DNA of 64,000 nt from Frederiksenia canicola (GTDB taxonomy: Bacteria; Pseudomonadota; Gammaproteobacteria; Enterobacterales; Pasteurellaceae). The notes below the pieces were generated by a model. It had not been told where the DNA came from and searched no databases. It was given only the letters and a program-made list of their open reading frames with translations. The first letter of the stretch is position 1. The number at the start of each line of letters is the position of its first letter. Positions 4,915-53,505 of the stretch are shown piece after piece. The stretch covers positions 992,740-1,056,739 of the forward strand of contig NZ_CP015029.1 in NCBI RefSeq assembly GCF_011455495.1. The letters run 5' to 3'. A program made the position numbers and the translations under genes.

Positions 4915-6231
4915 CTAGTGTTTATTTATTTGCCCTGTTGGTTGCAAATATTCCTCTTTGTTTGGATCAACGGTTTTTGCTTTGCGAATAATCGGTTCAA
5001 TGGTGGTACCTTGGGCGAGAATGGAGAACATCACCACAGAATAGGTCATCACTAGAATTAAATCTTTCACATCAATGTCATTCACATAGGCGGTTTTGGC
5101 TGGAATGGCTAACGCCATTGCTAATGCCAAACCACCACGCAAGCCGCCCCAAGTCATAATTTTCAATGTGTATGGGTTATATGTGCGGACACGTTGCAAG
5201 AGTTTAAACGGTAGCCATAAACTGGCATAGCGGCAAGCTAAGCAGATTGGAATTGCAGCGATCATCAAAATGATGCCGTAGATGTTGAAATCCACCAGTA
5301 ACAATGCAAAGCCGATTAAGAAGAACAGCAAGAAGTTTAAGAAGTGGTCGATCATTTCCCAGAAGTGATCAAGATAACGTTGACTTTGCTCTGAGAAGCC
5401 TGAATGGCGTGTCCAGTTGCCGATCATAATCCCTGAAACTACCATTGCTAATGCTCCTGAAACGTGTAACACGTTGTTCGCCAACATAAAGCCTGCGGTT
5501 GGAATAGTGAGGGTAAGCAAAATTTCCATACTACCGTCATCGGTGGATGAAATCAGTATATGGGCGATGAACCCGAGCACGAAGCCGAGTAAAATTCCGC
5601 CGATTGCCTCGTGTAAGAACAAGCCTAGAATGCTGGAAAAACTGGCTTCTTGCCCACCAAATGCCACCGCGAAAATAGTGATAAAGACCACCAAGCCCAC
5701 ACCATCGTTGAATAACGATTCGCCTTCCACTTGCATTGATAAGCGTTTTGGCGCCCGCAAGTTTTTGATAATGGCTAATACGGCGATGGGGTCCGTTGGT
5801 GAAATTAACGCACCAAACAGTAAGCAGTAGATGAAATCAATCGGCAAGCCGATGAGATTGCTGATGGCGTAAACGGCACCGCCGATAAAAAAGGTGGAGG
5901 TCGTTGTGGAGAATAATGCGAAAATGGTGATTTCCCATTTTTGATCTTTGAGAACTGGTAATTTGATGCCAAGTGATCCTGCAAAAAGTAAGAAACCTAA
6001 AATGCCATTTAATAAAAAGCTATTAAAATCAACTTGTTCCATCACGTCTTTAGCAACGCTGCCGATGTTAAACCAACCAAGCCAACCAAAGAAAAGAAGC
6101 AGTAATGATCCGACCATCGCTGAAGCAGTAATCGCAATAGTGGATTGGACTTTGTCGCTGATTTTGCTGGTGATAAAGCCAAGTAAAATCGACAACGCCG
6201 AGAGAAAACAGATATAGGCGTAAATTCCCAT
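4915..6231 (-). CDS. Na+/H+ antiporter, CPA1 family
   Basis: Inner-membrane cation/proton antiporter of 438 aa with about 12 predicted transmembrane segments. The family core is visible: ISPTDPIAV (Asp147) and EGESLFNDG with the ion-binding Asn-Asp pair at 175-176. The tail after residue 420 is hydrophilic. CPA1 antiporters exchange Na+ or K+ for H+ in pH and salt homeostasis; which ion is used here cannot be read from the sequence. It follows the Crp/Fnr-type regulator gene in the same direction with a gap of about 90 bases, so co-transcription is possible but unproven. Confidence 0.9.
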   Translation of the reverse strand: MGIYAYICFLSALSILLGFITSKISDKVQSTIAITASAMVGSLLLLFFGWLGWFNIGSVAKDVMEQVDFNSFLLNGILGFLLFAGSLGIKLPVLKDQKWEITIFALFSTTTSTFFIGGAVYAISNLIGLPIDFIYCLLFGALISPTDPIAVLAIIKNLRAPKRLSMQVEGESLFNDGVGLVVFITIFAVAFGGQEASFSSILGLFLHEAIGGILLGFVLGFIAHILISSTDDGSMEILLTLTIPTAGFMLANNVLHVSGALAMVVSGIMIGNWTRHSGFSEQSQRYLDHFWEMIDHFLNFLLFFLIGFALLLVDFNIYGIILMIAAIPICLACRYASLWLPFKLLQRVRTYNPYTLKIMTWGGLRGGLALAMALAIPAKTAYVNDIDVKDLILVMTYSVVMFSILAQGTTIEPIIRKAKTVDPNKEEYLQPTGQINKH

Positions 6232-6320
6232 AGGGCGTCCTTAGAATTGAAGTGTCACGAAAGTGGCGGATTATAAACTAATTTTTAGATGCCGTATAAA
6301 AATTCACATCATTTTAACGA

Positions 6321-6905
6321 CTACTTGTGTTTGTGAATCAGCACATCAGTTAGCAAGCCATTTCGTTTTAATTCGTTAGCAATGCGGATCGCAGTTTCAG
6401 TTTCGCAGCCTGCGTATTCAGCAATTTCACGATAAGTCCAATTATAATAGGGGAAGTGTTGGGTAAGAAAATAGATGCTGTCGATGACACGATCCAAGGT
6501 ACGTAGATAGGCACTTTTAGCGAGTCGTTGCTCTGCATCACGCAATTCGTTGGCGATTGTTTGCAGTAGCATCTTGCTGACGATGGGGTTTTCAAGGAAA
6601 AATTGATTGATGTCATCGGGTTTGATACGGATAATTTCCGCTTCAACCAACACTTTAGCATTACAGTGATATTGGCTATCACCAAATAGTGTTCGGTAGC
6701 CAAAATATTCACCTGTCTGGTACAACCTTACTAAGCTCTCTTTGCCGTTATCCAAAGTGTGATATAAGCCAACTAAACCGTTTTGAATGAAATAAAACTC
6801 CTTAGCGGTTTCTCCTTGTTTGTAAATGCTCATGCCTTTTGAAAGGGGATGGAGATGAGTGAGTTTACAGGCATTAAGCAGATCGGGGGTTAAATTCATT
6901 TCCAT
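6321..6905 (-). CDS. Crp/Fnr family transcriptional regulator
   Basis: Cytoplasmic one-component regulator of 194 aa. Residues about 20-120 form a cyclic-nucleotide-binding-type beta-roll (GLVGLYHTLDNGKESLV), followed by a dimerisation helix and a C-terminal helix-turn-helix near TYREIAEYAGCETETAIR. It lacks the N-terminal cysteine cluster of FNR and is not the canonical Crp. The ATG at 6905 was chosen because GGAGAG lies 5-8 bases upstream; the in-frame ATG at 6917 has no such site. It lies between a sulfatase gene and an antiporter gene, all on the same strand. An uptake-sequence dyad separates it from the sulfatase, so it may be its own unit. The ligand is unknown. Confidence 0.82.
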   Translation of the reverse strand: MEMNLTPDLLNACKLTHLHPLSKGMSIYKQGETAKEFYFIQNGLVGLYHTLDNGKESLVRLYQTGEYFGYRTLFGDSQYHCNAKVLVEAEIIRIKPDDINQFFLENPIVSKMLLQTIANELRDAEQRLAKSAYLRTLDRVIDSIYFLTQHFPYYNWTYREIAEYAGCETETAIRIANELKRNGLLTDVLIHKHK

Positions 6906-6973
6906 TGAACTCTCCATAATTATGTCAACGTGAGGCAGTATTCTAAGTATATTTGCAAAAAATTTGAAGAAAA

Positions 6974-7006
6974 TGACCGCTTGTGTCACTGACAAACAAG
7001 CGGTTA
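6974..7006. terminator. Uptake-sequence dyad after the first sulfatase
   Basis: ACCGCTTGT (6976-6984) and ACAAGCGGT (6996-7004) form a compact inverted pair with an 11-base loop, placed just downstream of the sulfatase gene that ends at 7036. A likely terminator of the symporter-sulfatase operon. Confidence 0.55.
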
Positions 7007-7035
7007 GTTTTTATCAAGATTTTGCAAATGCACAT

Positions 7036-8484
7036 TTAGATTTCATCAATGATCCGATACACCCAGTTTTCGAGAGGATCATTCAAGCGTTTCATCTCGG
7101 CACGCATTTCTTCTAACATCTCTTTTTTGATTTCACGATAGCGGTCGTCGTAGAACAAATTGTGCATTTCTTCAGGATCTTGGCGAATATCATAGAGTTC
7201 GCACAGATCCGTGGCATTAAACACTAATTTGTAATCTTTACGTCGCCACATTCGTTGCTCAAAATAGACAAAATGTCCTGCAAGCTGACCGAGCAAGCCT
7301 TTGCGGTCGTTCGGTTGATTCTGGCGGGTGATCGGCAGAATGGTTTCACCTTGGAAAGCTTCGGGCACTTTTTGCCCTGCGATGTCGAAAACGGTGGAGG
7401 TTAAATCGTGCAAATAGACCAAATTGTCGTCCACTTGATTGACGCGATCTGACTTCGGATCTTTGATAATCAACGGAATGTTGTAGGTGCTTTCAAACAT
7501 AAACTCACCTTTTTCAATCATTCGATGTGCTCCCATGGCATCGCCGTGGTCGGCAGTAGCAACAAGGAAGGTGTTATCGTACAGATTGTTTTCTTCTAAG
7601 AAGGTAAACAGCTCGCCGATAGCATCGTCGATCATTGTGATGTAGCCCCAGAATTTTGAGATCACTTCACGCCAACGCTCTTCGCTTGCTTCCCACATTC
7701 CCCACATTTTTGAAATGGTGCGAAAGTGATTTGGTTTATCTTCAAGCGGTTGGAAAAAGCTTTTATCTAGAACGATGTCTTTCGGATCGTACATTGAGTA
7801 GTAAGGCTCTGGCACAACGCATGGAGTATGTGGTCCCCAGAAGTTGATCCACGCAAAGAACGGTTTTCCCTCCGACAAAGATTCTGTGATGTAGCGTTTG
7901 GCTTCATCAATGATGAAATACTCAATAGTTTCTTCTCGCGTGCCAGACAATAAACCGCATAGCTCCTGCACTCGCAAATGGGGATTATCACCAAAGTAGG
8001 CTTTGCTTACCGTTGGGGCTTCGTACCCTTTTTCTTCTAACCACTCTTTATAGCGGTTTGAGTGTGTTGGTGGTTGGTTGAACACCAAATTTTTATATAC
8101 CCCACTACCTGGATAGCCATAACCGTCGAAATTATGCCCTTTAATGCCATAATCTTCAGGCACAGATTTAGTACCAACATGCCATTTACCCACTACATAA
8201 GCATTGTAGCCTTTCAAGTTGGCAATGTTTGGGGCAGTTTGGCTGATTTCGCCTGTGCCACCTTTTTCGCCATTTTTGATAATGCCGTGGCTAGACGGCA
8301 TTAACCCTGTGAACAGCGATGTGCGAGCGGGTCCACACACCGAAGCGGGCGTGAACGCATTATTGAAACGAATACCATCTTTCGCTAGTCGGTCTAAATT
8401 TGGGGTTTTCACTATCTGATGTCCATAAGTCCCCAACATATCCTTACGAACCTGATCTAACAGAATATAGATAATGTTATTCAT
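7036..8484 (-). CDS. Cytoplasmic sulfatase (formylglycine type, YidJ-like)
   Basis: Type I sulfatase of 482 aa that hydrolyses a sulfate ester. The formylglycine signature C-x-P-x-R is CGPAR, with Cys50 as the residue to be converted. An N-terminal metal-binding aspartate (Asp10), KWHVG and the late metal motif TADHGDAMGAH also fit. There is no signal peptide, so it should act in the cytoplasm. It starts 3 bases after the symporter gene, with AAAGG upstream, so both are in one operon; E. coli yidJ-yidK has the same pairing. Maturation could be done by the maturase at 52.3 kb. The substrate is unknown; the linked importer suggests a small sulfated solute. Confidence 0.9.
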   Translation of the reverse strand: MNNIIYILLDQVRKDMLGTYGHQIVKTPNLDRLAKDGIRFNNAFTPASVCGPARTSLFTGLMPSSHGIIKNGEKGGTGEISQTAPNIANLKGYNAYVVGKWHVGTKSVPEDYGIKGHNFDGYGYPGSGVYKNLVFNQPPTHSNRYKEWLEEKGYEAPTVSKAYFGDNPHLRVQELCGLLSGTREETIEYFIIDEAKRYITESLSEGKPFFAWINFWGPHTPCVVPEPYYSMYDPKDIVLDKSFFQPLEDKPNHFRTISKMWGMWEASEERWREVISKFWGYITMIDDAIGELFTFLEENNLYDNTFLVATADHGDAMGAHRMIEKGEFMFESTYNIPLIIKDPKSDRVNQVDDNLVYLHDLTSTVFDIAGQKVPEAFQGETILPITRQNQPNDRKGLLGQLAGHFVYFEQRMWRRKDYKLVFNATDLCELYDIRQDPEEMHNLFYDDRYREIKKEMLEEMRAEMKRLNDPLENWVYRIIDEI

Positions 8485-8487
8485 AAT

Positions 8488-10170
8488 TTACGCCTTTTGT
8501 TTACGACCTAATACCGCAATTATAATCACTTGTAGTACTGCCCATACACCTAAAATTAAGGTGGCGTTGCCTTCTGGTGAGGCTAAACCCAGCGGTGATA
8601 AAATGGCATAAAGTGTGACTAAACCTAATACTAAGGATGCAACGGTTACTTTTGCGTATTCCCAGTTAGTTAAATCCACATTAGCGTGGTTTACGGTGTT
8701 GTCTTCATACGGTGTTTCGCGTTTGAGGAATTGACCTAACACTAACATTAACACCACATCAAATACGAACAAGCACGCCATTACATACACAAAGTTCCAT
8801 TTTACTTGGAATACCCAAACGATGCAGAAGTAAAGGATAACGTGAGCAAGCAAGGCAATACGTGCAGCTAAACCAGATACGGTTTTGTTGAATAAGCCAA
8901 CGGCAAAGAGTGCCACGATAGGAATGTTCACAAAGCCTGCAAAACGTTTAGTGACAAGGAAGATACCGTCTGTACCGAACATCAATAACGGTGCAATAAT
9001 AATGGTTACCACCGCCATAACGGCAGAGACTTGTTTTGCAAAGCGAATGAGTTCCGTATCCGTACGTTCTTTTTTGCTGATGGATGGTAATAAGTCTTTA
9101 CAGAAAATAGTTGCTGCAGAGTTTAAGAATGAGTTGAAGGTACTCAATACTGCACCGAATAACGCTGCAACGAAGAAGCCTTGTAATGCGGTTGGCAGTA
9201 CTTTATTGACTAATTGTGGATAAGACGCATCAATTGGTTTTAAACCTTCTCCAAGAATATGGAAACTCAATAAACCCGGTAAATTAAGAATGATTGGAAG
9301 TAAAAGTAGGAATAATGCGGCAATTAAGATTCCTTTTTGGCCCGCCTTTAAATCTCTCGCACCTAAGGCACGTTGAACAATTGCTTGGTTGGTCGTCCAG
9401 TAGAAGAAGTTTACGATTAAAATTCCTGTAAACATAGCTGGCCAAGGTACTGCATCGGTAGCACTACCGATAGCATTGAACTTCTCAACATGTGTCGTGG
9501 TAATAATGTGGAACCCTTCGGAAATACTGCCGTTACCCAAATAGCTCAAGGCGAAAATGGGCACGAGCAACGCTCCGATTACCAACAACACGGCATTCCA
9601 AGTATCTGACACCGCAACTGCTTTCAATCCACCGAAAATCGCATAAATTGCTCCTACGATCCCGATAGTGATAACAGTATAAACAATGGCTTGACCGTAA
9701 CTTAAACCGAATAAAGTTTCTAAGTTAAACACTTTATTAAAGGCGATTGCCCCCGTATAAAGTGCGGTTGGAATCACGATAAAAAGATAGAAAATTAAGA
9801 AAAGTGTCGACATAATCAAGCGAGTTTGACGGTCAAAACGGTTTTCAAAAAATTCTGGAATAGTGGTATATCCGTTGCGGATATATTTTGGAAGTAGATA
9901 GAGAGCTAAGAAACAGAGCGGTATAACGGATTGAACTGTCCATGCAATAATTGAGAAGTTGCCTGCATAAGAGTTTGCATTCACTCCGATTAACTGTTCG
10001 GTAGAAAGTGAGGTAAGCACCATTGAGCAGCCGATGACAACGGCACTTAACCCACGTCCTGCCAAGAAATAGCCCTTAGAAGTTGTTAAATCATCGTTTC
10101 TGGTTTTATACCAAGAAACCCCTGCCACCAAGCCTGTGACGATTAAAAAACTGACTATGGTTAAAAACAT
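8488..10170 (-). CDS. Sodium/solute symporter, SSS family (YidK-like)
   Basis: Inner-membrane sodium-coupled transporter of 560 aa with about 14 transmembrane segments. Features include GYFLAGR near residue 35, LSTEQLIG, and the symporter signature region around [20 protein letters not shown]. From memory it aligns with E. coli YidK for most of its length. The start is strongly supported by GGGAGGA upstream. It is the first gene of an operon with the sulfatase, so it probably imports the sulfatase's substrate. A CRP-type palindrome lies about 155 bases upstream, in the region shared with the divergent TauE gene. Confidence 0.88.
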
Positions 10171-10296: not shown

Positions 10297-10314
10297 TGAT
10301 TATGATAATAATCA
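10297..10314. promoter_or_regulatory. Inverted repeat, possible operator
   Basis: TGATTAT / ATAATCA (10297-10303 and 10308-10314) form a perfect 7-base inverted repeat with a 4-base centre in the divergent control region. The binding protein is unknown; the sequence is AT-rich, so chance is possible. Confidence 0.35.
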
Positions 10315-10321
10315 TAGAGTT

Positions 10322-10341
10322 AAAGTGATCTTGATCACATT
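10322..10341. promoter_or_regulatory. CRP-like binding site
   Basis: AGTGATCTTGATCACA (10324-10339) matches TGTGA-N6-TCACA in 9 of 10 fixed positions, and its core GTGATCTTGATCAC is a perfect palindrome. It lies between the symporter-sulfatase operon and the divergent TauE gene, so it could serve either or both. Carbon-source control is inferred. Confidence 0.65.
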
Positions 10342-10430
10342 TCAGAAAATTTCTCAAAATATGAGAATGATCATAAATAAAGCCCAAACAACATTGCCAT
10401 AATTAGCACCCAATAATGAAAGGGGGAATT

Positions 10431-11237
10431 ATGAGCCTATCTCTCATCTTAATTTTAATTGCTTGTGGCATTCTCGCAAATTTCATGTCAGCGTTATTTG
10501 GCATTGGTGGTGGGGTATTGATTGTACCCGTGTTAAGCACACTTTTTCCTGACTTACCTTTTCAAATGATCTCCGCAACCTCCCTCACCATTGTGATGGG
10601 AACGGCCTTAATCAATCTCTACTATTTTTATCGGCAACATATTCAAATTAGCTATAAAGCAATGTTGGTTTGGTCGGTAGGCATGTTGATTGGTGCTCAA
10701 ATTGGCTTTGAAAGCAGCTTTTACTTGCCGAAAAATATTATTATCGGAGTGTTTATTATCACGCTTTTACTGCTTGCTATTCGAACATTATGTTTTTACA
10801 ACACTGCAAAATATAGTGAGAATCTGACCGCTTGTGAGTTGCCAAAAGGCATTTTTCTTTGTCTATTTGGCGGAACCGTGGCAGGAATGACGGGGATTGG
10901 CGGCGGGTCAGTGATGGCTCCTCTGATTGCACAGCTTAAAAGCGTGAAGCCGCATCAAATTGCGGTCTATTCTAACTACATGATGGTGATAGGTGGGCTT
11001 GGCAATATGTATGGCTATGTAACGAAAACACCTGAATTACAATTGGATAACTCATGGCAGCTAGGCTACATCAACTTTTCGGTGGCTGCCTTGGTCGTTT
11101 TAAGCTCTTTTTTCACGAGTTTTGTGTCAATGAAAGTGAAAGGCAAATTGCAACCAGACCTTACTCGTAAATTACTTGGCATCATTTTGTTGCTGATCGC
11201 CACTTACATGTTTGTCTTACAGCATTTATCATTTTAA
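10431..11237 (+). CDS. TauE/SafE family membrane transporter
   Basis: Inner-membrane protein of 268 aa with about 8 transmembrane segments in two similar halves, each opening with a glycine-rich motif (GIGGGVLIVPVL near residue 25, GMTGIGGGSVMAPLI in the second half). The family includes exporters of sulfite, sulfoacetate and related anions. The ATG at 10431 is preceded by AGGGGG; an in-frame ATG 15 bases earlier would place that site inside the gene. It is divergent from the symporter-sulfatase operon, which suggests (inference only) removal of sulfur anions produced by desulfation. TauE members are often annotated without proof of substrate. Confidence 0.85.
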   Translation: MSLSLILILIACGILANFMSALFGIGGGVLIVPVLSTLFPDLPFQMISATSLTIVMGTALINLYYFYRQHIQISYKAMLVWSVGMLIGAQIGFESSFYLPKNIIIGVFIITLLLLAIRTLCFYNTAKYSENLTACELPKGIFLCLFGGTVAGMTGIGGGSVMAPLIAQLKSVKPHQIAVYSNYMMVIGGLGNMYGYVTKTPELQLDNSWQLGYINFSVAALVVLSSFFTSFVSMKVKGKLQPDLTRKLLGIILLLIATYMFVLQHLSF

Positions 11238-47853: not shown

Positions 47854-49215
47854 TTAACTTGCGGGAATAATAGTTGGGCGTGGCTCTTTGGCGATTTCCA
47901 TCTGTTTGCATAGTTTTTCTCGCAATTCCATTCGGGCTTGTTCATAGTGTGGATCTCGCACTAAATTGGTCAGCTCGTAAGGATCTTTTTCTAAATCGTA
48001 GAGAAAATCTTCTTGATAGAGATCGCTGCCGGCATATTCGCCGCCGTTCTTGCCTGGAGCAGTCACGGCATAGAGATATTTTTCGGTGCGGATGCATCGT
48101 CCAACGCGGCTTTCGCTGATTTGAGCAAAGACTTCATTTAAACGATTTGGATCTTTTTGGGCTACCACATCATAGAGATTCTCGCCGATCATCTTATCGC
48201 CAACATCAATGCCAGCCATCGCTAAGAACGTTTTTGGAAGGCTGGCGGTACTGACTAGTTGTTTGATCCGTTTACCACCCCGATAGTCACCACCTGCAAT
48301 CACTAACGGAACGTGCAACGCAGAGGAGTGGCACGACCGCTTGTAATCGTCATAGCCGTTGAGATTTTCATCTCGGTTACGGGTCATAAAGTGAGATCCG
48401 TGGTCGGAGGCGAAAACGATAATGGTATTGTCGTATAAGCCTTTGGCTTTGAGTTTGTCGATCAAGCGGGCTAGATTGTCGTCTAAACTGCGACAGCAGC
48501 CGAGATAATCAGGGTACATCTCATCGGCATTGCCTTTCAATACAGCTAAGTCGTGCGGTAGTTGGTAATTGGCAAAGCGAGTTTTTGAGCCGTCAGGGCC
48601 TTCGTAACAGTGATGGTCGTTTTGGTGGTGCGGTTCAATATGGGAAATGGTCATAAAGAACGGTTTTTCGCCATTGTATTGATCGAGATATTCCAAAGCA
48701 TAATCTGTAATGCAATCTACTCTATAGCCTGTAAATTCACATTTGTTCATGTTTTCATCAAAAACAAAGCCATCATAGCCATGGGAAGTAAATTCCAACA
48801 CGTCAGCCGCCCGCCAGAAGCCTTTATAACCGCCACGCCGTTCAGGTGGAATGGCTGTGATTGTGTAGTCGATAGTTGGAGCTTCTTCCAATTCGCCATC
48901 ACTGGCTAAGTGCCATTTGCCGATGTAAGCGGTGTCATAATCATTTTCGGTAAAGTAGTCAGCCAAAGTTTTAATATCTTGCGGTAACGCCACATTATTG
49001 CGGAAACAGCCCGTTTCTGTTGGGTATAAACCGCTTTGGAAGATGGAGCGGCAAGGTCCGCATACGGGCTGCGATGAGTAGGCTTCTTCAAAAAGCACAC
49101 CTTCTTCTGCTAATTTATCTAGAGTTGGAGTAATATTTAACGGCTGACCATAAGCCCCAACGGTGTCCCAACGCTGTTGGTCGGTGAAGTAGAAAATGAT
49201 ATTCGGTCTGTTCAT
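47854..49215 (-). CDS. Cytoplasmic sulfatase (formylglycine type), second copy
   Basis: Type I sulfatase of 453 aa. The formylglycine motif is CGPCR with Cys52, in the context PVCGPCRS; further landmarks are FYFTDQQRWD with Asp12, GKWHLA and the metal motif FASDHGSHF. No signal peptide is present. It starts three bases after tctA ends, with AAGGA upstream, so it is the last gene of the tctCBA operon. It is only distantly similar to the sulfatase at 7.0 kb, so the substrates probably differ. The maturase gene lies upstream in the same direction. Confidence 0.9.
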   Translation of the reverse strand: MNRPNIIFYFTDQQRWDTVGAYGQPLNITPTLDKLAEEGVLFEEAYSSQPVCGPCRSIFQSGLYPTETGCFRNNVALPQDIKTLADYFTENDYDTAYIGKWHLASDGELEEAPTIDYTITAIPPERRGGYKGFWRAADVLEFTSHGYDGFVFDENMNKCEFTGYRVDCITDYALEYLDQYNGEKPFFMTISHIEPHHQNDHHCYEGPDGSKTRFANYQLPHDLAVLKGNADEMYPDYLGCCRSLDDNLARLIDKLKAKGLYDNTIIVFASDHGSHFMTRNRDENLNGYDDYKRSCHSSALHVPLVIAGGDYRGGKRIKQLVSTASLPKTFLAMAGIDVGDKMIGENLYDVVAQKDPNRLNEVFAQISESRVGRCIRTEKYLYAVTAPGKNGGEYAGSDLYQEDFLYDLEKDPYELTNLVRDPHYEQARMELREKLCKQMEIAKEPRPTIIPAS

Positions 49216-49218
49216 AAC

Positions 49219-50715
49219 TTATCCTTTTTTCACTTTTTTATAGTTGTTAAACACAATGCTCACGATTACGAGCAAAATAAAAATGCAGAATACGAGAGAG
49301 AATGGGCGTTCAACGAAAATGTGCCAGTCACCATCGGAAATCATTAACGAACGGCGGAGGTTTTTCTCGGTTAAAGCCCCTAGCACCAAGCCGAGCAGGG
49401 TTGGCACTGCAGAGAACCCCAGTTTGTCCATAATATAGGCGATCACGCCAAAACTGATTGCTGTGCCAACATCAAACATTGATTCTTTCAACGAATAAGC
49501 CCCAGCAAAGCAGAAAACAGCAATCAGAGGGATTAAAATTTCTTGAGGAATTTTGACGACTTTCGCAAACAGTTTGAGCAGATATTTGCCTTGAATCAGC
49601 ATAAAAATGTTCACGAAAATCAAGCCGATCATGATGGCATAGACTTCGGTGCCGTGGGTTTGGAATAGGTTGGGGCCTGGTGTGAGCCCGTTGATCATCA
49701 AGGCTCCGAGCATTAATGCTACCGCCGCATCACCAGGGATCCCAAGCGTGAGTAACGGTACTAAAGCGGTGCCAGTAATCGCATTATTTGCACATTCCGC
49801 GGCAGCAATTCCCTCGACTGAGCCGTGTCCAAATTCTTCTGGTTTTTTCGAGACTTTGCGTGAGAAATCGTAGCTTAAAAAAGAAGCGATTGATGCTCCC
49901 GTGCCAGGGATAATACCTACTAAAATGCCTGATAAGGAGCCAATAGCAAGCGGTTTTGGCAATCTTTTCCATTCAGATTTAGACAACGTACCTTTATCCA
50001 GTGGCAAGTTACTTGGGGCGTTGCTATTTTGCTTCTGTTTGAGAGCTACGGCTTTGTGGATAATTTCAATCAATGCGAATAAGCCAATTAGCACGACCAC
50101 CAAATCAAAACCACTATATAAGTTAATGTTTTCAAAGGTAAAACGCATCGTGTCGCCACTCATTAAATCCATACCAATAAAGGATAAAAATAAGCCGACA
50201 CAACCTGAAATTACGCCTTTAAGCAGACTTTCACCGCTAACGCCTGCAATAATGGTCAAACCAAAAGCACAAATTAGAAAGTATTCGGGTGAACCCATTT
50301 TCAAGGCGACTTTTGCAACTTCGGGGGCTAGGAATAGCAGCACTAACGCACTGACAATACCGCCAACAAAAGAGGCATATAACGCCACATTTAATGCTTT
50401 TTGTGCTTGACCGTGCAAGGCGAGTGGATGTCCATCCAACATTGTCGCTGCAGCGTGTGGTGTACCAGGGGTTTTAATTAAAATAGCTGAAATGGAGCCA
50501 CCGTAGCTGCCCGCACAATAGATGCCGAGCAAAAACATAAAAGAGTGAATGGCGTTGAGAGAGTAAGTGATAGGCAAAAATAGCACCAAGCAGAGCATCA
50601 CCGTTAGCCCTGGAACAGAGCCGAAAACGATGCCTAAAAACAGTCCTAAATTGATATAGAGCAAGCTCCCCCAGCTAAAAAATTCGTGAAAACCCGCTAA
50701 AATTTGATCGAACAT
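49219..50715 (-). CDS. tctA: Tripartite tricarboxylate transporter permease TctA
   Basis: Large membrane subunit of a TTT-family secondary importer, 498 aa with about 11-12 transmembrane segments. The TctA signatures are visible: GSVPGLTVMLCLVLFLP near residue 32, YGGSISAILIKTPGTP near 70, and the second repeat GIIPGTGASIASFLSYD, IPGDAAVALMLGAL. TTT systems usually carry carboxylates. Here the operon ends with a sulfatase, so a sulfated, acidic solute is a reasonable but unproven substrate. Confidence 0.92.
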   Translation of the reverse strand: MFDQILAGFHEFFSWGSLLYINLGLFLGIVFGSVPGLTVMLCLVLFLPITYSLNAIHSFMFLLGIYCAGSYGGSISAILIKTPGTPHAAATMLDGHPLALHGQAQKALNVALYASFVGGIVSALVLLFLAPEVAKVALKMGSPEYFLICAFGLTIIAGVSGESLLKGVISGCVGLFLSFIGMDLMSGDTMRFTFENINLYSGFDLVVVLIGLFALIEIIHKAVALKQKQNSNAPSNLPLDKGTLSKSEWKRLPKPLAIGSLSGILVGIIPGTGASIASFLSYDFSRKVSKKPEEFGHGSVEGIAAAECANNAITGTALVPLLTLGIPGDAAVALMLGALMINGLTPGPNLFQTHGTEVYAIMIGLIFVNIFMLIQGKYLLKLFAKVVKIPQEILIPLIAVFCFAGAYSLKESMFDVGTAISFGVIAYIMDKLGFSAVPTLLGLVLGALTEKNLRRSLMISDGDWHIFVERPFSLVFCIFILLVIVSIVFNNYKKVKKG

Positions 50716-50746
50716 ATTGCCCGTCCTGATGAAAATAAACTAAATA

Positions 50747-51199
50747 CTAAGGAAGCGACACATTTAAAAAATGTTGGAAAAAGAGTGACACGCTCACAAT
50801 TACCGCAGCAACAATGGCGTAATAGTGCCATTTGTGACAACGGAAAAAGAGTAAGCAGCCGTAGGCAAAAAGAATTGAGGCGAACATAAATGGCAGCCAA
50901 TGTAATAAACCCCAATAAAGCGCCAATAAGCCAACAATAAACAGCGAACGCAGCTCTTGTTGAAAATGAATTTCCACCATTTTGCTTGGCTGCTTGCGAA
51001 TGAGTTTTATCAATTCTTTGATCAGTAACACTGCACTGCATAATGCCATTAGCCCGATGATTAAACGGGGAAAGGTTTGAGCCGTGATGACATCATCTTC
51101 ATCGGTAACGATTTGATAGGGAATGAGAAACCATAGAATGGCAGAAACGGTGAGAAAAACTACCGCTCCCACGAGATCTTGTCTGAATGTAATTTTCAT
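50747..51199 (-). CDS. tctB: Tripartite tricarboxylate transporter subunit TctB
   Basis: Small membrane subunit of the TTT transporter, 150 aa with four hydrophobic segments and the family-typical first helix. GGGAGAG stands before the ATG. It lies between tctC and tctA, 31 bases before tctA. TctB proteins are poorly conserved; the call rests mainly on size, topology and position. Confidence 0.85.
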   Translation of the reverse strand: MKITFRQDLVGAVVFLTVSAILWFLIPYQIVTDEDDVITAQTFPRLIIGLMALCSAVLLIKELIKLIRKQPSKMVEIHFQQELRSLFIVGLLALYWGLLHWLPFMFASILFAYGCLLFFRCHKWHYYAIVAAVIVSVSLFFQHFLNVSLP

Positions 51200-51219
51200 A
51201 ATTCTCTCCCATTAGATTG

Positions 51220-51256
51220 CGGTGAAATTTGCAAAATTTTTGCCAAATCTCACCGC
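51220..51256. terminator. Possible attenuator between tctC and tctB
   Basis: GCGGTGA (51220-51226) and TCACCGC (51250-51256) form a variant uptake-type dyad within the operon. It could lower tctBA expression relative to the binding protein. Confidence 0.35.
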
Positions 51257-51266
51257 TTGTTTAGGG

Positions 51267-52229
51267 TTACTTCACTAATTTAGAATATTTTTCTGCTTTC
51301 GCCATTGTTGAGTCAATGTAAGCTTTCACGGCTTTGCCATCTTTAATATCTAAATGTAGCCCGATGTTTTTCGCAGTTTGCTGCAATTTTGGATTTTCCA
51401 AAATGGTTTTGAGTGCATTGTAGTTTTTATCGATGATGGCTTGATCGGTTCCCGCACGAATAAAGACCGCACAAGTGTTGGTCATCCAAGTGTCGTAACC
51501 ATAATCTGCAACACTTTCGAGGTTATAAACTTCATCGACCAATTTTTTCTCATCAAACGCTACAATCGGCTTCACATTGCCCGCTTTCACAAATTCTCTT
51601 GCCAAAGAGGCGTGCGTCGTCGCAAAAGTCACTTCGCCAGACACTACTGCTGTTAAGGCTTCATTCGCTCCTTCATAAGGAATGAGTTTGAATTTTGCAC
51701 CGAGTTCGGTAAGCAACGCGGCAGTTTGCAAGGCTTCGGAAGAGTTTGTACCGTTTACACCCACTTTTACGGTTTTGCCTTTGGCAATGTAATCTTTTAA
51801 GGTTTGCATACTGTCAACGTTGGTTTTTGGATTGCTTAAGAACACAAAAGTTGATGAGTAGATGTTAATTACTGGCACGAAATCTTCAAATTTGTAAGAG
51901 ACTTTCATGGTTAGCGGAGCAATTGCAAAGCTGCCTTCACCACCTAAAATCAATTTGTGAGTGTTTGGTTTTTCTTTGAGGTATTCTGTTAATGCGACGG
52001 CACCGCCAGAGCCAAGAATATTGTCCGCCAACAGTGGCTGACCATACTGCTCTTTGCCATATTCAGACATTGCACGGTTGATTTGGTCGGCTAAACCGCC
52101 CACAGCCCAAGGGGTGATAATGGTAACAGGGCCAGTCGGCCAAGTGGTTTCAGAGGCTGAAGTGTGAACCGAAAATAAGCCCAATAGCCCAGCTAACCCA
52201 AGTTTTAATGCGGATTTCCAAGTTTTCAT
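51267..52229 (-). CDS. tctC: Tripartite tricarboxylate transporter solute-binding protein TctC
   Basis: Periplasmic binding protein of 320 aa (Bug/TctC family). The signal peptide is clear, with cleavage near Ala25 (VHTSA|SE). The mature part has the family's WPTGPVTIITPWAVGG loop and GVNGTNSSEALQTAALL second loop, which bind carboxylate groups in relatives. The ATG at 52229 follows GAGGAGG and gives the normal signal peptide; the longer reading from 52286 does not. First gene of the operon tctC-tctB-tctA-sulfatase. CRP site and inverted repeat lie upstream. Confidence 0.9.
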   Translation of the reverse strand: MKTWKSALKLGLAGLLGLFSVHTSASETTWPTGPVTIITPWAVGGLADQINRAMSEYGKEQYGQPLLADNILGSGGAVALTEYLKEKPNTHKLILGGEGSFAIAPLTMKVSYKFEDFVPVINIYSSTFVFLSNPKTNVDSMQTLKDYIAKGKTVKVGVNGTNSSEALQTAALLTELGAKFKLIPYEGANEALTAVVSGEVTFATTHASLAREFVKAGNVKPIVAFDEKKLVDEVYNLESVADYGYDTWMTNTCAVFIRAGTDQAIIDKNYNALKTILENPKLQQTAKNIGLHLDIKDGKAVKAYIDSTMAKAEKYSKLVK

Positions 52230-52272
52230 TTTGTCGTCCTCCTCAAGATCAACAGTTGATGAATTCTTGGCT

Positions 52273-52278
52273 AGTATA
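52273..52278 (-). promoter_or_regulatory. Putative -10 of the tctC promoter
   Basis: On the minus strand TATACT lies 44 bases before tctC. The inverted repeat at 52300-52317 covers the expected -35 region, and the CRP site lies further upstream. Confidence 0.4.
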
Positions 52279-52299
52279 TAAATCAATCCGATTGGAGAA

Positions 52300-52317
52300 A
52301 TATGACATTGGTCATAT
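52300..52317. promoter_or_regulatory. Inverted repeat, candidate operator of the tct-sulfatase operon
   Basis: ATATGAC-ATTG-GTCATAT is a perfect 7-base palindrome around a 4-base centre, lying between the CRP site and the -10 of tctC. The regulator is not encoded nearby and is unknown. Confidence 0.6.
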
Positions 52318-52323
52318 AGAAGG

Positions 52324-52339
52324 TGTGAGCTAGGTCACA
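52324..52339. promoter_or_regulatory. CRP binding site upstream of tctC
   Basis: TGTGAGCTAGGTCACA is a perfect match to TGTGA-N6-TCACA. It lies 95 bases before tctC and directly after the maturase stop codon, so cAMP-CRP control of the tct-sulfatase operon is likely. Confidence 0.8.
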
Positions 52340-52342
52340 AAT

Positions 52343-53428
52343 TTACAAATTTCTTTGCATTTTGATCCTCAAAGCAAGGCGTTGTAAATACGGCTGCATA
52401 TATGAAAGTGCCGAATAATAGGCTTCACATAGCACGTTGTGCGGTTCACCGAAGCCTTCGATTTTGCGGTGTTTGGGGCAGCCACCATGGCAAGCGAAGC
52501 GGAATTGACATTGTTGGCATTTAGTGGAGATTTGCTGTTTCAGCAAGCCAAAGTGTTGCTGTTTGGGTGAGGTAACGATTTCGCGTAACGGGGTTTCGAT
52601 CAGGTTGCCAATTTTATATTGCGGGTAAACATAGTGGTCGCAGCTGTAAATATCACCGTTTTGTTCGATCACGATCTGGTCACCACAACGTTGGCGGAAA
52701 ATGCACAAACTAGGTTGCATGCCGAGAAACGCCATCATCCATTGCTCGATAAATTGCACGCTGATTTTGCCGATGTCGTTGGCGTACCACTGTTGGAAAA
52801 TCTCAATCAGAAATTGTCCATAATCTTTGGCACTGGCTTGCTGTTCACCATCGTTCATCAGCGGGATAAACTGAAAATGGGTGGATCCGATCTCCTTCAA
52901 AAAGCGGTAAATGCGTTTGGCATGCTGCACATTTTTTTGATGCACTACGGTGAGCGTGTTAAATTCCACTTCATATTTCAATAAGTTATCCAGCCCTTCC
53001 ATCACTTTATGAAAGGTGCCTTTTTGGCTTTTAGTGAGGCGATAGGCATCGTGCAGCTCTTCAGGACCGTCAATCGACAAGCCGACCAAAAACCGATTTT
53101 CTTTCAAAAAGGCACACCATTTCTCGTCAAGTAGCACGCCGTTGGTTTGTAAGGCATTTTCGACCGTTTTGCCATTTGCATATTTTTGCTGAAAGTTGAC
53201 CGCTTGTTGATAAAACTCCAAGCCTGCCAAGGTTGGTTCGCCCCCTTGCCACAAGAACGTGACATGTTGCTGTGGGGAGTGCTGTAAATAGTCCCTCACA
53301 TAGTGTTCAAGTACCTCATCGCTCATTCGGATTTGATTGCTATGCGGTTTTTCCAAATAAAAACAGTAACTGCAATCTAAATTGCAAATAGAACCAGTCG
53401 GTTTTGACATCAGTTGAAATGGGTGCAT
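52343..53428 (-). CDS. Anaerobic sulfatase-maturating radical SAM enzyme
   Basis: Radical SAM protein of 361 aa that converts the active-site cysteine of sulfatases to formylglycine without oxygen. The SAM cluster is CNLDCSYC (Cys15, Cys19, Cys22). Further cysteines form the SPASM auxiliary clusters: the series from CGDQIVIEQNGDIYSCDHY to CQQCQFRFACHGGCPKHR. The ATG at 53428 follows AGGAG; a reading from 53452 would add 8 residues without a site. It is upstream of tctC on the same strand, separated by about 110 bases with its own promoter elements. It may serve both sulfatases of the window. Confidence 0.93.
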   Translation of the reverse strand: MHPFQLMSKPTGSICNLDCSYCFYLEKPHSNQIRMSDEVLEHYVRDYLQHSPQQHVTFLWQGGEPTLAGLEFYQQAVNFQQKYANGKTVENALQTNGVLLDEKWCAFLKENRFLVGLSIDGPEELHDAYRLTKSQKGTFHKVMEGLDNLLKYEVEFNTLTVVHQKNVQHAKRIYRFLKEIGSTHFQFIPLMNDGEQQASAKDYGQFLIEIFQQWYANDIGKISVQFIEQWMMAFLGMQPSLCIFRQRCGDQIVIEQNGDIYSCDHYVYPQYKIGNLIETPLREIVTSPKQQHFGLLKQQISTKCQQCQFRFACHGGCPKHRKIEGFGEPHNVLCEAYYSALSYMQPYLQRLALRIKMQRNL

Positions 53429-53505
53429 TGCCTTGCTCCTGTGTGCCATCATGAGCGTTTAAGCATAGTCAAAAAAGAATGCCAACGATATGACGGTGAT
53501 CATAG

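Follow-up and report, generated by a model that had tools for sequence, protein, structure and literature searches.

Tripartite tricarboxylate transporters (TTTs; TctCBA, TC 2.A.80) are importers built from three subunits, a solute-binding protein (TctC), a small membrane protein (TctB) and a large one (TctA), encoded in the order C-B-A. In a 64,000-nucleotide stretch of Frederiksenia canicola DNA (contig NZ_CP015029.1; hereafter the window), I describe a set with the same order and a TctC of the same Bug/TctC-type fold, whose genes run into that of a sulfatase and are preceded by that of an anaerobic sulfatase maturase. The described TTT ligands are mostly carboxylates and, nicotinate apart, appear to have two carboxyl groups or other functional groups, within a substrate range still little explored (PMC5812351, available part), whereas the window system is linked to a sulfatase. 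The same part of that source describes SlcHFG, a TTT for the sulfonate sulfolactate, which resembles the role proposed here in handling a sulfur-oxyanion solute. No paper joining a TTT with a sulfatase substrate was found among those listed by searches of an open-access library, and to that extent the original prediction, that no TTT for a sulfated substrate had been described, holds, although SlcHFG shows that a TTT for a sulfonate is known. Sulfolactate has a carbon-sulfur bond, for which a sulfatase step is unnecessary. A sulfated sugar would be new as a TTT ligand, yet chemically not odd.

Two groups of sulfatase systems are also comparable. The first consists of symporter-sulfatase pairs of the YidK/YidJ type of Escherichia coli, where a single-subunit sodium symporter stands in place of the binding-protein-dependent TTT; a second system of like kind lies in the window and shares a regulatory motif with the operon. 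The second consists of the Bacteroides mucin S1 sulfatases (S1_11, S1_15, S1_16, S1_20), which have the S1 fold and the formylglycine (FGly) site in common with the window enzyme. Those reviewed are assigned, mostly from predicted signal peptides, to the cell surface or the periplasm (PMC10154612, available part), whereas the window sulfatase is cytoplasmic.

The window operon is a new variant assembled from known parts, with an unexpected regulon. It is probably a scavenging operon, in which TctC-TctAB imports a small sulfated mucin-type sugar for cytoplasmic desulfation, under the control of CRP and a second Crp/Fnr-type regulator. In the mechanism I propose, other organisms would free the sugar from mucin-type glycans, TctC would capture it in the periplasm, likeliest as a sulfated galactose or N-acetylhexosamine (mono- or disaccharide), and TctAB would bring it in intact. 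The radical S-adenosylmethionine (SAM) maturase would turn the active-site cysteine of the sulfatase into FGly, the cytoplasmic S1 sulfatase would remove the sulfate, the desulfated sugar would pass to central metabolism, and surplus sulfur anion may exit through a TauE/SafE protein. Transcription would be gated by CRP, responding to carbon hunger, and by the second regulator at the palindrome TATGA-N6-TCATA, which would also cover the maturase, the second sulfatase-symporter pair and TauE.

The five genes lie in one direction (Table 1), separated by gaps of 113, 67, 31 and 3 bases in the order maturase, tctC, tctB, tctA, sulfatase. The PF03401, PF07331, PF01970 and PF00884 matches each exceed the Pfam cut-off, and the three transporter subunits are contiguous, forming a complete TTT set. 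The maturase carries radical SAM (PF04055) and SPASM (PF13186) domains, has its CxxxCxxC motif as CNLDCSYC (read by eye) and belongs to TIGR03942. The original prediction of a minus-strand tctC-tctB-tctA-sulfatase unit with 3-67-base gaps, a radical SAM/SPASM maturase just upstream, and a sulfatase with a CxPxR site and no signal peptide was thus borne out in each of these points, the site being CGPCR. The TctC model (predicted local distance difference test, pLDDT, 90.2) matches the solved proteins Bug27, MatC, TBP and TphC, and its TM-scores to solved Bug/TctC proteins are 0.74-0.82 (query-normalised, first 17 rows). Reading the TctC ligand from conserved residues was tried and given up: many polar residues are common to 34 of the 37 other rows, yet no ligand could be read from them.

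The sulfatase is 453 amino acids long, and its AlphaFold model (mean pLDDT 89.6) has the alkaline-phosphatase-type fold with a C-terminal subdomain, aligning with 2qzu over 418 residues (Z 40.3, root-mean-square deviation 2.7). It possesses the FGly motif and the metal- and sulfate-site residues of an S1 sulfatase; D12, Q13, C52, R56, K100, H102, H196, D271, H272 and K292, residues with catalytic roles, are invariant in all 81 aligned relatives. The first strand of the fold occupies residues 5-11, and the open frame permits at most one additional N-terminal residue; there is therefore no signal peptide, and the enzyme is cytoplasmic. Anaerobic sulfatase maturases also work in the cytoplasm. 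The structure matches in the PDB are mostly carbohydrate sulfatases, and the protein falls below the cut-off of every named equivalog (choline-sulfatase 128 vs 433, arylsulfatase 152 vs 481). A family-profile search placed S1_11 enzymes, which act on 6-sulfated N-acetylglucosamine (6S-GlcNAc) and 6-sulfated L-galactose (L-Gal-6S), at ranks 1, 2 and 5 (5g2v, 7lha, 7p24); the top match, 5g2v at 169.6 bits, is in pieces, and the positions of the S1_11 triad (His and Asp/Arg recognising O3/O4) were not assignable. I did not settle on an exact S1 subfamily: the profile favours S1_11, but in the Foldseek and VIA rankings S1_11 enzymes are interspersed with those of S1_25 and with chondroitin, porphyran and carrageenan enzymes.

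The genomes of the family were searched for the sulfatase and TctA (140 Pasteurellaceae genomes from 43 genera, sulfatase counted at E < 1e-60; eight of them were also met in the wider scan described below and are counted once). The sulfatase is present in 11 of the 140 genomes and 7 of the 43 genera, with 81-91% identity in the other genomes. TctA is encoded directly upstream in all 11, against 27/140 genomes with any TctA, so that the linkage is more than chance, and tctC and tctB are also kept in the wider loci of the 10 other sulfatase genomes. The maturase lies directly upstream in 7 of the 11 (the window and L012-L017), and the remaining four (one Gallibacterium, three Spirabiliibacterium) have an above-cut-off maturase elsewhere in the genome; across the family, 74/140 genomes have a maturase above the TIGR03942 cut-off. 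The gene order is thus not peculiar to this strain; had it been, the original prediction would have been refuted.

A scan of GTDB species genomes then extended the comparison to the best 80 of 118 confirmed sulfatase relatives (63-91% identity). Gene calls and families at these loci were made with my own script, "near" meaning no more than six called genes away, whichever the strand; many of the loci are contigs of metagenome-assembled genomes, and two (L063, L081) are cut upstream. A TTT lies near the sulfatase at 54/80 loci, with TctC, TctB and TctA all present at 52 and tctA less than 300 bases upstream at 49. These TTT-linked relatives span Pseudomonadota and Bacillota, and the hosts of the relatives include Pasteurellaceae, Succinivibrionaceae, Lachnospiraceae, Oscillospiraceae and others, among them Faecalibacterium, Lawsonibacter, Hungatella and Anaerobiospirillum. 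The maturase is near at 52/80 loci, and a TauE/SafE gene at 19, every one of them a TTT locus (19/54); the window's TauE gene shares a predicted regulatory site with the operon. A GntR-type regulator is found at 38/54 TTT loci (domains checked on one example). The order conserved over two phyla, the missing signal peptide and the TauE/SafE neighbours support a TTT dedicated to a substrate from which sulfate is removed in the cytoplasm. That import comes first and desulfation follows inside the cell, as first predicted, is thus well supported by inference from gene context; that the imported solute is the sulfatase's own substrate, which sugar it is, and that the anion is exported, are further steps that this context suggests.

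The nature of the substrate is suggested by the 26 relatives that have no TTT nearby. In half of these (13/26) a CUT1 permease is found at a distance of no more than six genes, and beta-galactoside or hexosamine enzymes are found near the sulfatase in 11. At seven loci this is a gene of the glycoside hydrolase family 112 (GH112) cluster together with a CUT1 ATP-binding cassette (ABC) importer, and the four others have GH2 (L100), GH42 (L088), GH35 (L079) and GH20 (L091, by cluster only); at L092 GH112 occurs together with GH2 and GH20. Profiles were run on selected genes, and the remaining GH genes were assigned by clustering: the L093 GH112 protein matches TIGR02336, 1,3-beta-galactosyl-N-acetylhexosamine phosphorylase (974 bits vs cut-off 560), and the six others are assigned by cluster. 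In a quick tree, some forks of which are weak, the loci with ABC importer and GH112 fall at two separate places among the TTT loci, as would happen if one importer had replaced another while the type of substrate stayed the same. These neighbours and the tree point to a sulfated sugar of the kinds found in mucin, a beta-galactoside or a hexosamine, and the favoured substrate is a sulfated galactose or N-acetylhexosamine of mucin type. In the window's own genome, galactokinase (galK) and NagA (nagA) were found, whereas searches gave no match for GH2 (control positive in 5/14) or for GH88, the unsaturated uronyl hydrolase of glycosaminoglycan (GAG) and uronate pathways (control positive in 3/14), which favours a monosaccharide sulfate and counts against a GAG uronide; GH112 also gave no match, but neither did its control, so absence is not shown. 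Release of 6S-GlcNAc from host oligosaccharides by GH20 enzymes has been described (PMC11659886, available part), so such a monosaccharide does arise, and it may be what feeds this operon.

The region upstream of tctC carries two palindromes, a perfect CRP-type site and, 23 bp from it, TATGA-N6-TCATA (Table 1). The latter pattern is expected 0.05 times per 64-kb window and occurs five times in the genome (2.14 Mb): four of the copies are at promoters of the sulfatase systems and the fifth is inside an open reading frame; since the pattern was taken from the tctC site, only the three further sites in the window are independent. The palindrome and a CRP-like site (0-2 mismatches) at exactly the 23-bp offset precede tctC in 10/10 genomes compared, namely the sulfatase genomes other than G092, which does have TATGA-N6-TCATA. 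Outside the family, the palindrome precedes tctC in 3/3 Anaerobiospirillum loci, without a CRP site at that offset, and was not found at the other 69 non-Pasteurellaceae loci among the best 80 relatives. Hexamers resembling a -10 element begin 27-30 bases past the motif centre in most Pasteurellaceae tctC promoters (by eye), which puts the motif near -40, the position of an activator.

Table 1. Genes and predicted regulatory sites of the two sulfatase systems, in window coordinates.
Feature	Position	Strand	Match or remark
Sulfatase, S1-type (alkaline phosphatase superfamily), cytoplasmic, FGly site CGPCR	47854..49215	-	PF00884 172 bits
TctA, large membrane subunit of TTT importer	49219..50715	-	PF01970 504 bits
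TctB, small membrane subunit	50747..51199	-	PF07331 61 bits
TctC, solute-binding protein, N-terminal signal-like stretch (by eye)	51267..52229	-	PF03401 95.5 bits
Putative -10 of tctC promoter, TATACT	52273..52278	-	Consensus match only
TATGA-N6-TCATA, 23 bp from CRP-type site towards tctC; putative Crp-like regulator site at about -40	52301..52316	.	
Perfect CRP-type site upstream of tctC, TGTGA-N6-TCACA	52324..52339	.	Only exact match in window
Anaerobic sulfatase maturase, radical SAM/SPASM	52343..53452	-	TIGR03942 473.4 bits vs cut-off 349.45
TATGA-N6-TCATA, 36 bases upstream of maturase start	53489..53504	.	
Crp/Fnr-type regulator, candidate for TATGA-N6-TCATA	6321..6917 (start at inner ATG of frame 6321-6995)	-	PF00027 71 bits
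Second FGly-type sulfatase (CGPAR), no evident signal peptide (by eye)	7036..8484	-	PF00884 160 bits
Sodium:solute symporter paired with second sulfatase	8488..10170	-	NF007790/PRK10484 708 bits, cut-off 401
TATGA-N6-TCATA, symporter side	10301..10316	.	
CRP-like site, 1 mismatch, at 23-bp offset from symporter-side palindrome	10324..10339	.	
TATGA-N6-TCATA, TauE side	10360..10375	.	
TauE/SafE-family anion exporter, divergent from symporter-sulfatase pair	10416..11237	+	PF01925 133 bits

The candidate regulator shows a cyclic-nucleotide-binding domain (PF00027) above cut-off, and scores 22 bits against HTH_Crp_2, under the cut-off of 27. A relative is found in 74/140 family genomes, and a 14-base form of the motif occurs in 48/74 genomes with the regulator, against 6/66 without (Fisher p 2.6e-12, without correction for kinship). 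The motif was located at 65 places; at 38 of them a listed regulator, maturase or sulfatase is within 8 kb, and the other 27 have none so close, though at least one of these (in G103) stands between a symporter-sulfatase pair and TauE. These sequence patterns point to a Crp/Fnr-type sulfatase regulon; the pairing of this regulator with the palindrome, and activation by CRP, are what I infer from them. In three genomes of one genus (G061, G062, G063) the maturase matches are below cut-off and fragmented with stops, and the Crp-like regulator gene persists.

The second system consists of a sulfatase and a symporter, divergent from TauE. The genome has five PF00884 matches, three of which lack C-x-P-x-R (by eye) and are presumably LtaS-, EptA- and YejM-like, so that there seem to be only two FGly-type sulfatases. 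The maturase next to tctC is the sole TIGR03942 match in the genome; one maturase per sulfatase is thereby ruled out, and the single enzyme should also serve the symporter-linked sulfatase. Calling it the operon's own maturase, as was done at first, is right in that it is the genome's only one, but overstated, because a predicted promoter with regulatory sites separates it from tctC, it has a regulatory site of its own and it is presumably shared with the second sulfatase. Among eight further family regions (L106-L113), the symporter-sulfatase pair is present in six, and regulator, maturase, second sulfatase, symporter and TauE are kept together in four.

A number of observations weigh against the reading of the operon as a sulfated-sugar importer under a dedicated regulon. 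The other genome of the window's genus (G047) had neither the sulfatase nor TctA in the family genome searches, and in G092 (L014, about 10.5-11.1 kb) tctC is apparently split in two frames, the other operon genes looking intact; the split could be decay or an assembly error. Among the relatives, 26/80 loci have no TTT nearby, half of them (13) with no CUT1 permease within six genes either. No sugar enzyme was recognised in 15/26 non-TTT loci, where neighbours were only partly scanned, and the GH genes of L079 and L091 are on the opposite strand. A GH112-cluster gene is near none of the TTT loci (0/54), so that the evidence for the sugar comes from relatives with other importers, at about 63-73% identity. 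The closest solved sulfatases are distant (about 19-27% identity) and indicate no single sugar. The link between regulator and motif is correlative: 26/74 regulator genomes are without the 14-base motif, 6/66 without the regulator have it, and 10/74 regulator matches, including that of the sulfatase-bearing G053, contain a stop codon. Lastly, carboxylates are the commonest cargo of known TTT systems (PMC5812351, available part).

Other explanations were weighed against import of a sulfated mucin-type sugar. The original prediction had named a sulfated uronic acid, and import of such a unit, or of another acidic GAG unit, with desulfation inside, would fit some of the evidence. The GAG sulfatases 6j66, 6s21 and 8di0 are among the structure neighbours, and L092 has as a neighbour (5382-7019) a right-handed beta-helix protein (PF13229, 27.7 bits), a fold shared by some polysaccharide lyases. 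A uronic acid would also supply the carboxylate that is the usual TTT ligand (PMC5812351, available part). It is nevertheless very improbable, and is not favoured: the GH88 search of the genome was empty, the 18 Pfam-scanned proteins of the relatives' loci (other neighbours were unscanned) included no GH88 or named lyase family, and several relatives without TTT sit instead with the beta-galactoside and hexosamine enzymes described above. The low place of the uronate 2-O-sulfatase BT1596 in the structure list (Z 33.7; top rows 36-42) is weak evidence in the same direction. That the TTT imports a non-sugar sulfate ester (an aryl sulfate, choline-O-sulfate or a sulfated acid), as a source of carbon or sulfur, is unlikely. 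The choline-sulfatase and arylsulfatase models do match, and some solved TctC relatives are TTT proteins that bind terephthalate or similar aromatic acids, but both matches are far under cut-off, and glycosidases and sugar-type ABC importers are found beside the sulfatase in several relatives.

A looser association, in which importer and sulfatase share only a promoter, the TTT importing a carboxylate and the sulfatase substrate entering by another route, would agree with the 26/80 relatives where the sulfatase has other neighbours, and with the 16/27 TctA-bearing family genomes that lack such a sulfatase. I consider it quite unlikely in view of the 3-base gap in the window and the close tctA at 49/80 loci in two phyla; moreover, a CUT1 permease replaces the TTT at 13/26 of the other loci, and in Hungatella and Clostridium relatives the sulfatase is accompanied by a second, distant TTT. 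As for the enzyme itself, it could share the sulfatase fold but hydrolyse phosphonate or phosphate esters. FGly is also used by phosphonate monoester hydrolases, and weak matches to the Phosphodiest and PehA models were seen, but the latter reaches 102 bits against a cut-off of 900, and with a maturase at 52/80 loci and TauE/SafE at 19/80 this identity is extremely unlikely.

Sulfate caps protect mucin. If the sulfated-sugar reading is true, a cassette of importer and cytoplasmic sulfatase would let bacteria internalise sulfated sugars intact and reserve the product for themselves; it would also widen the TTT substrate range past carboxylates and sulfonates, and give TTT importers a testable function. 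The shared promoter motif makes the whole Pasteurellaceae pathway testable together, and may mark cooperating sulfatase, importer and exporter genes. The same pairing in many gut bacteria suggests that small sulfated, probably mucin-type, sugars are imported whole and desulfated inside there too. It is possible, and put forward tentatively, that this is a widespread unrecognised route in two phyla (Faecalibacterium, Lachnospiraceae, Oscillospiraceae, Anaerobiospirillum, Pasteurellaceae), in which dedicated TTTs import whole sulfated mucin sugars for desulfation in the cytoplasm, with a Crp/Fnr-type sulfatase regulator in Pasteurellaceae (beside CRP) and Anaerobiospirillum, and a GntR-type one with a sugar-binding-type sensor domain in many Bacillota.

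Two further arrangements were seen among the relatives. In Hungatella and Clostridium (L031, L033, L035; about 4.2-11.4 kb), the neighbours of the sulfatase include a distant TTT, another sulfatase and a LacI-like regulator; with TctC proteins only 24-26% identical to that of the window, these loci are a second lineage of TTT-sulfatase pairing. On a contig binned as Eubacteriales (L030), a TTT-sulfatase operon closely resembling that of Pasteurellaceae was found (TctC 64%, sulfatase 78% identity), reflecting either horizontal transfer or misbinning.

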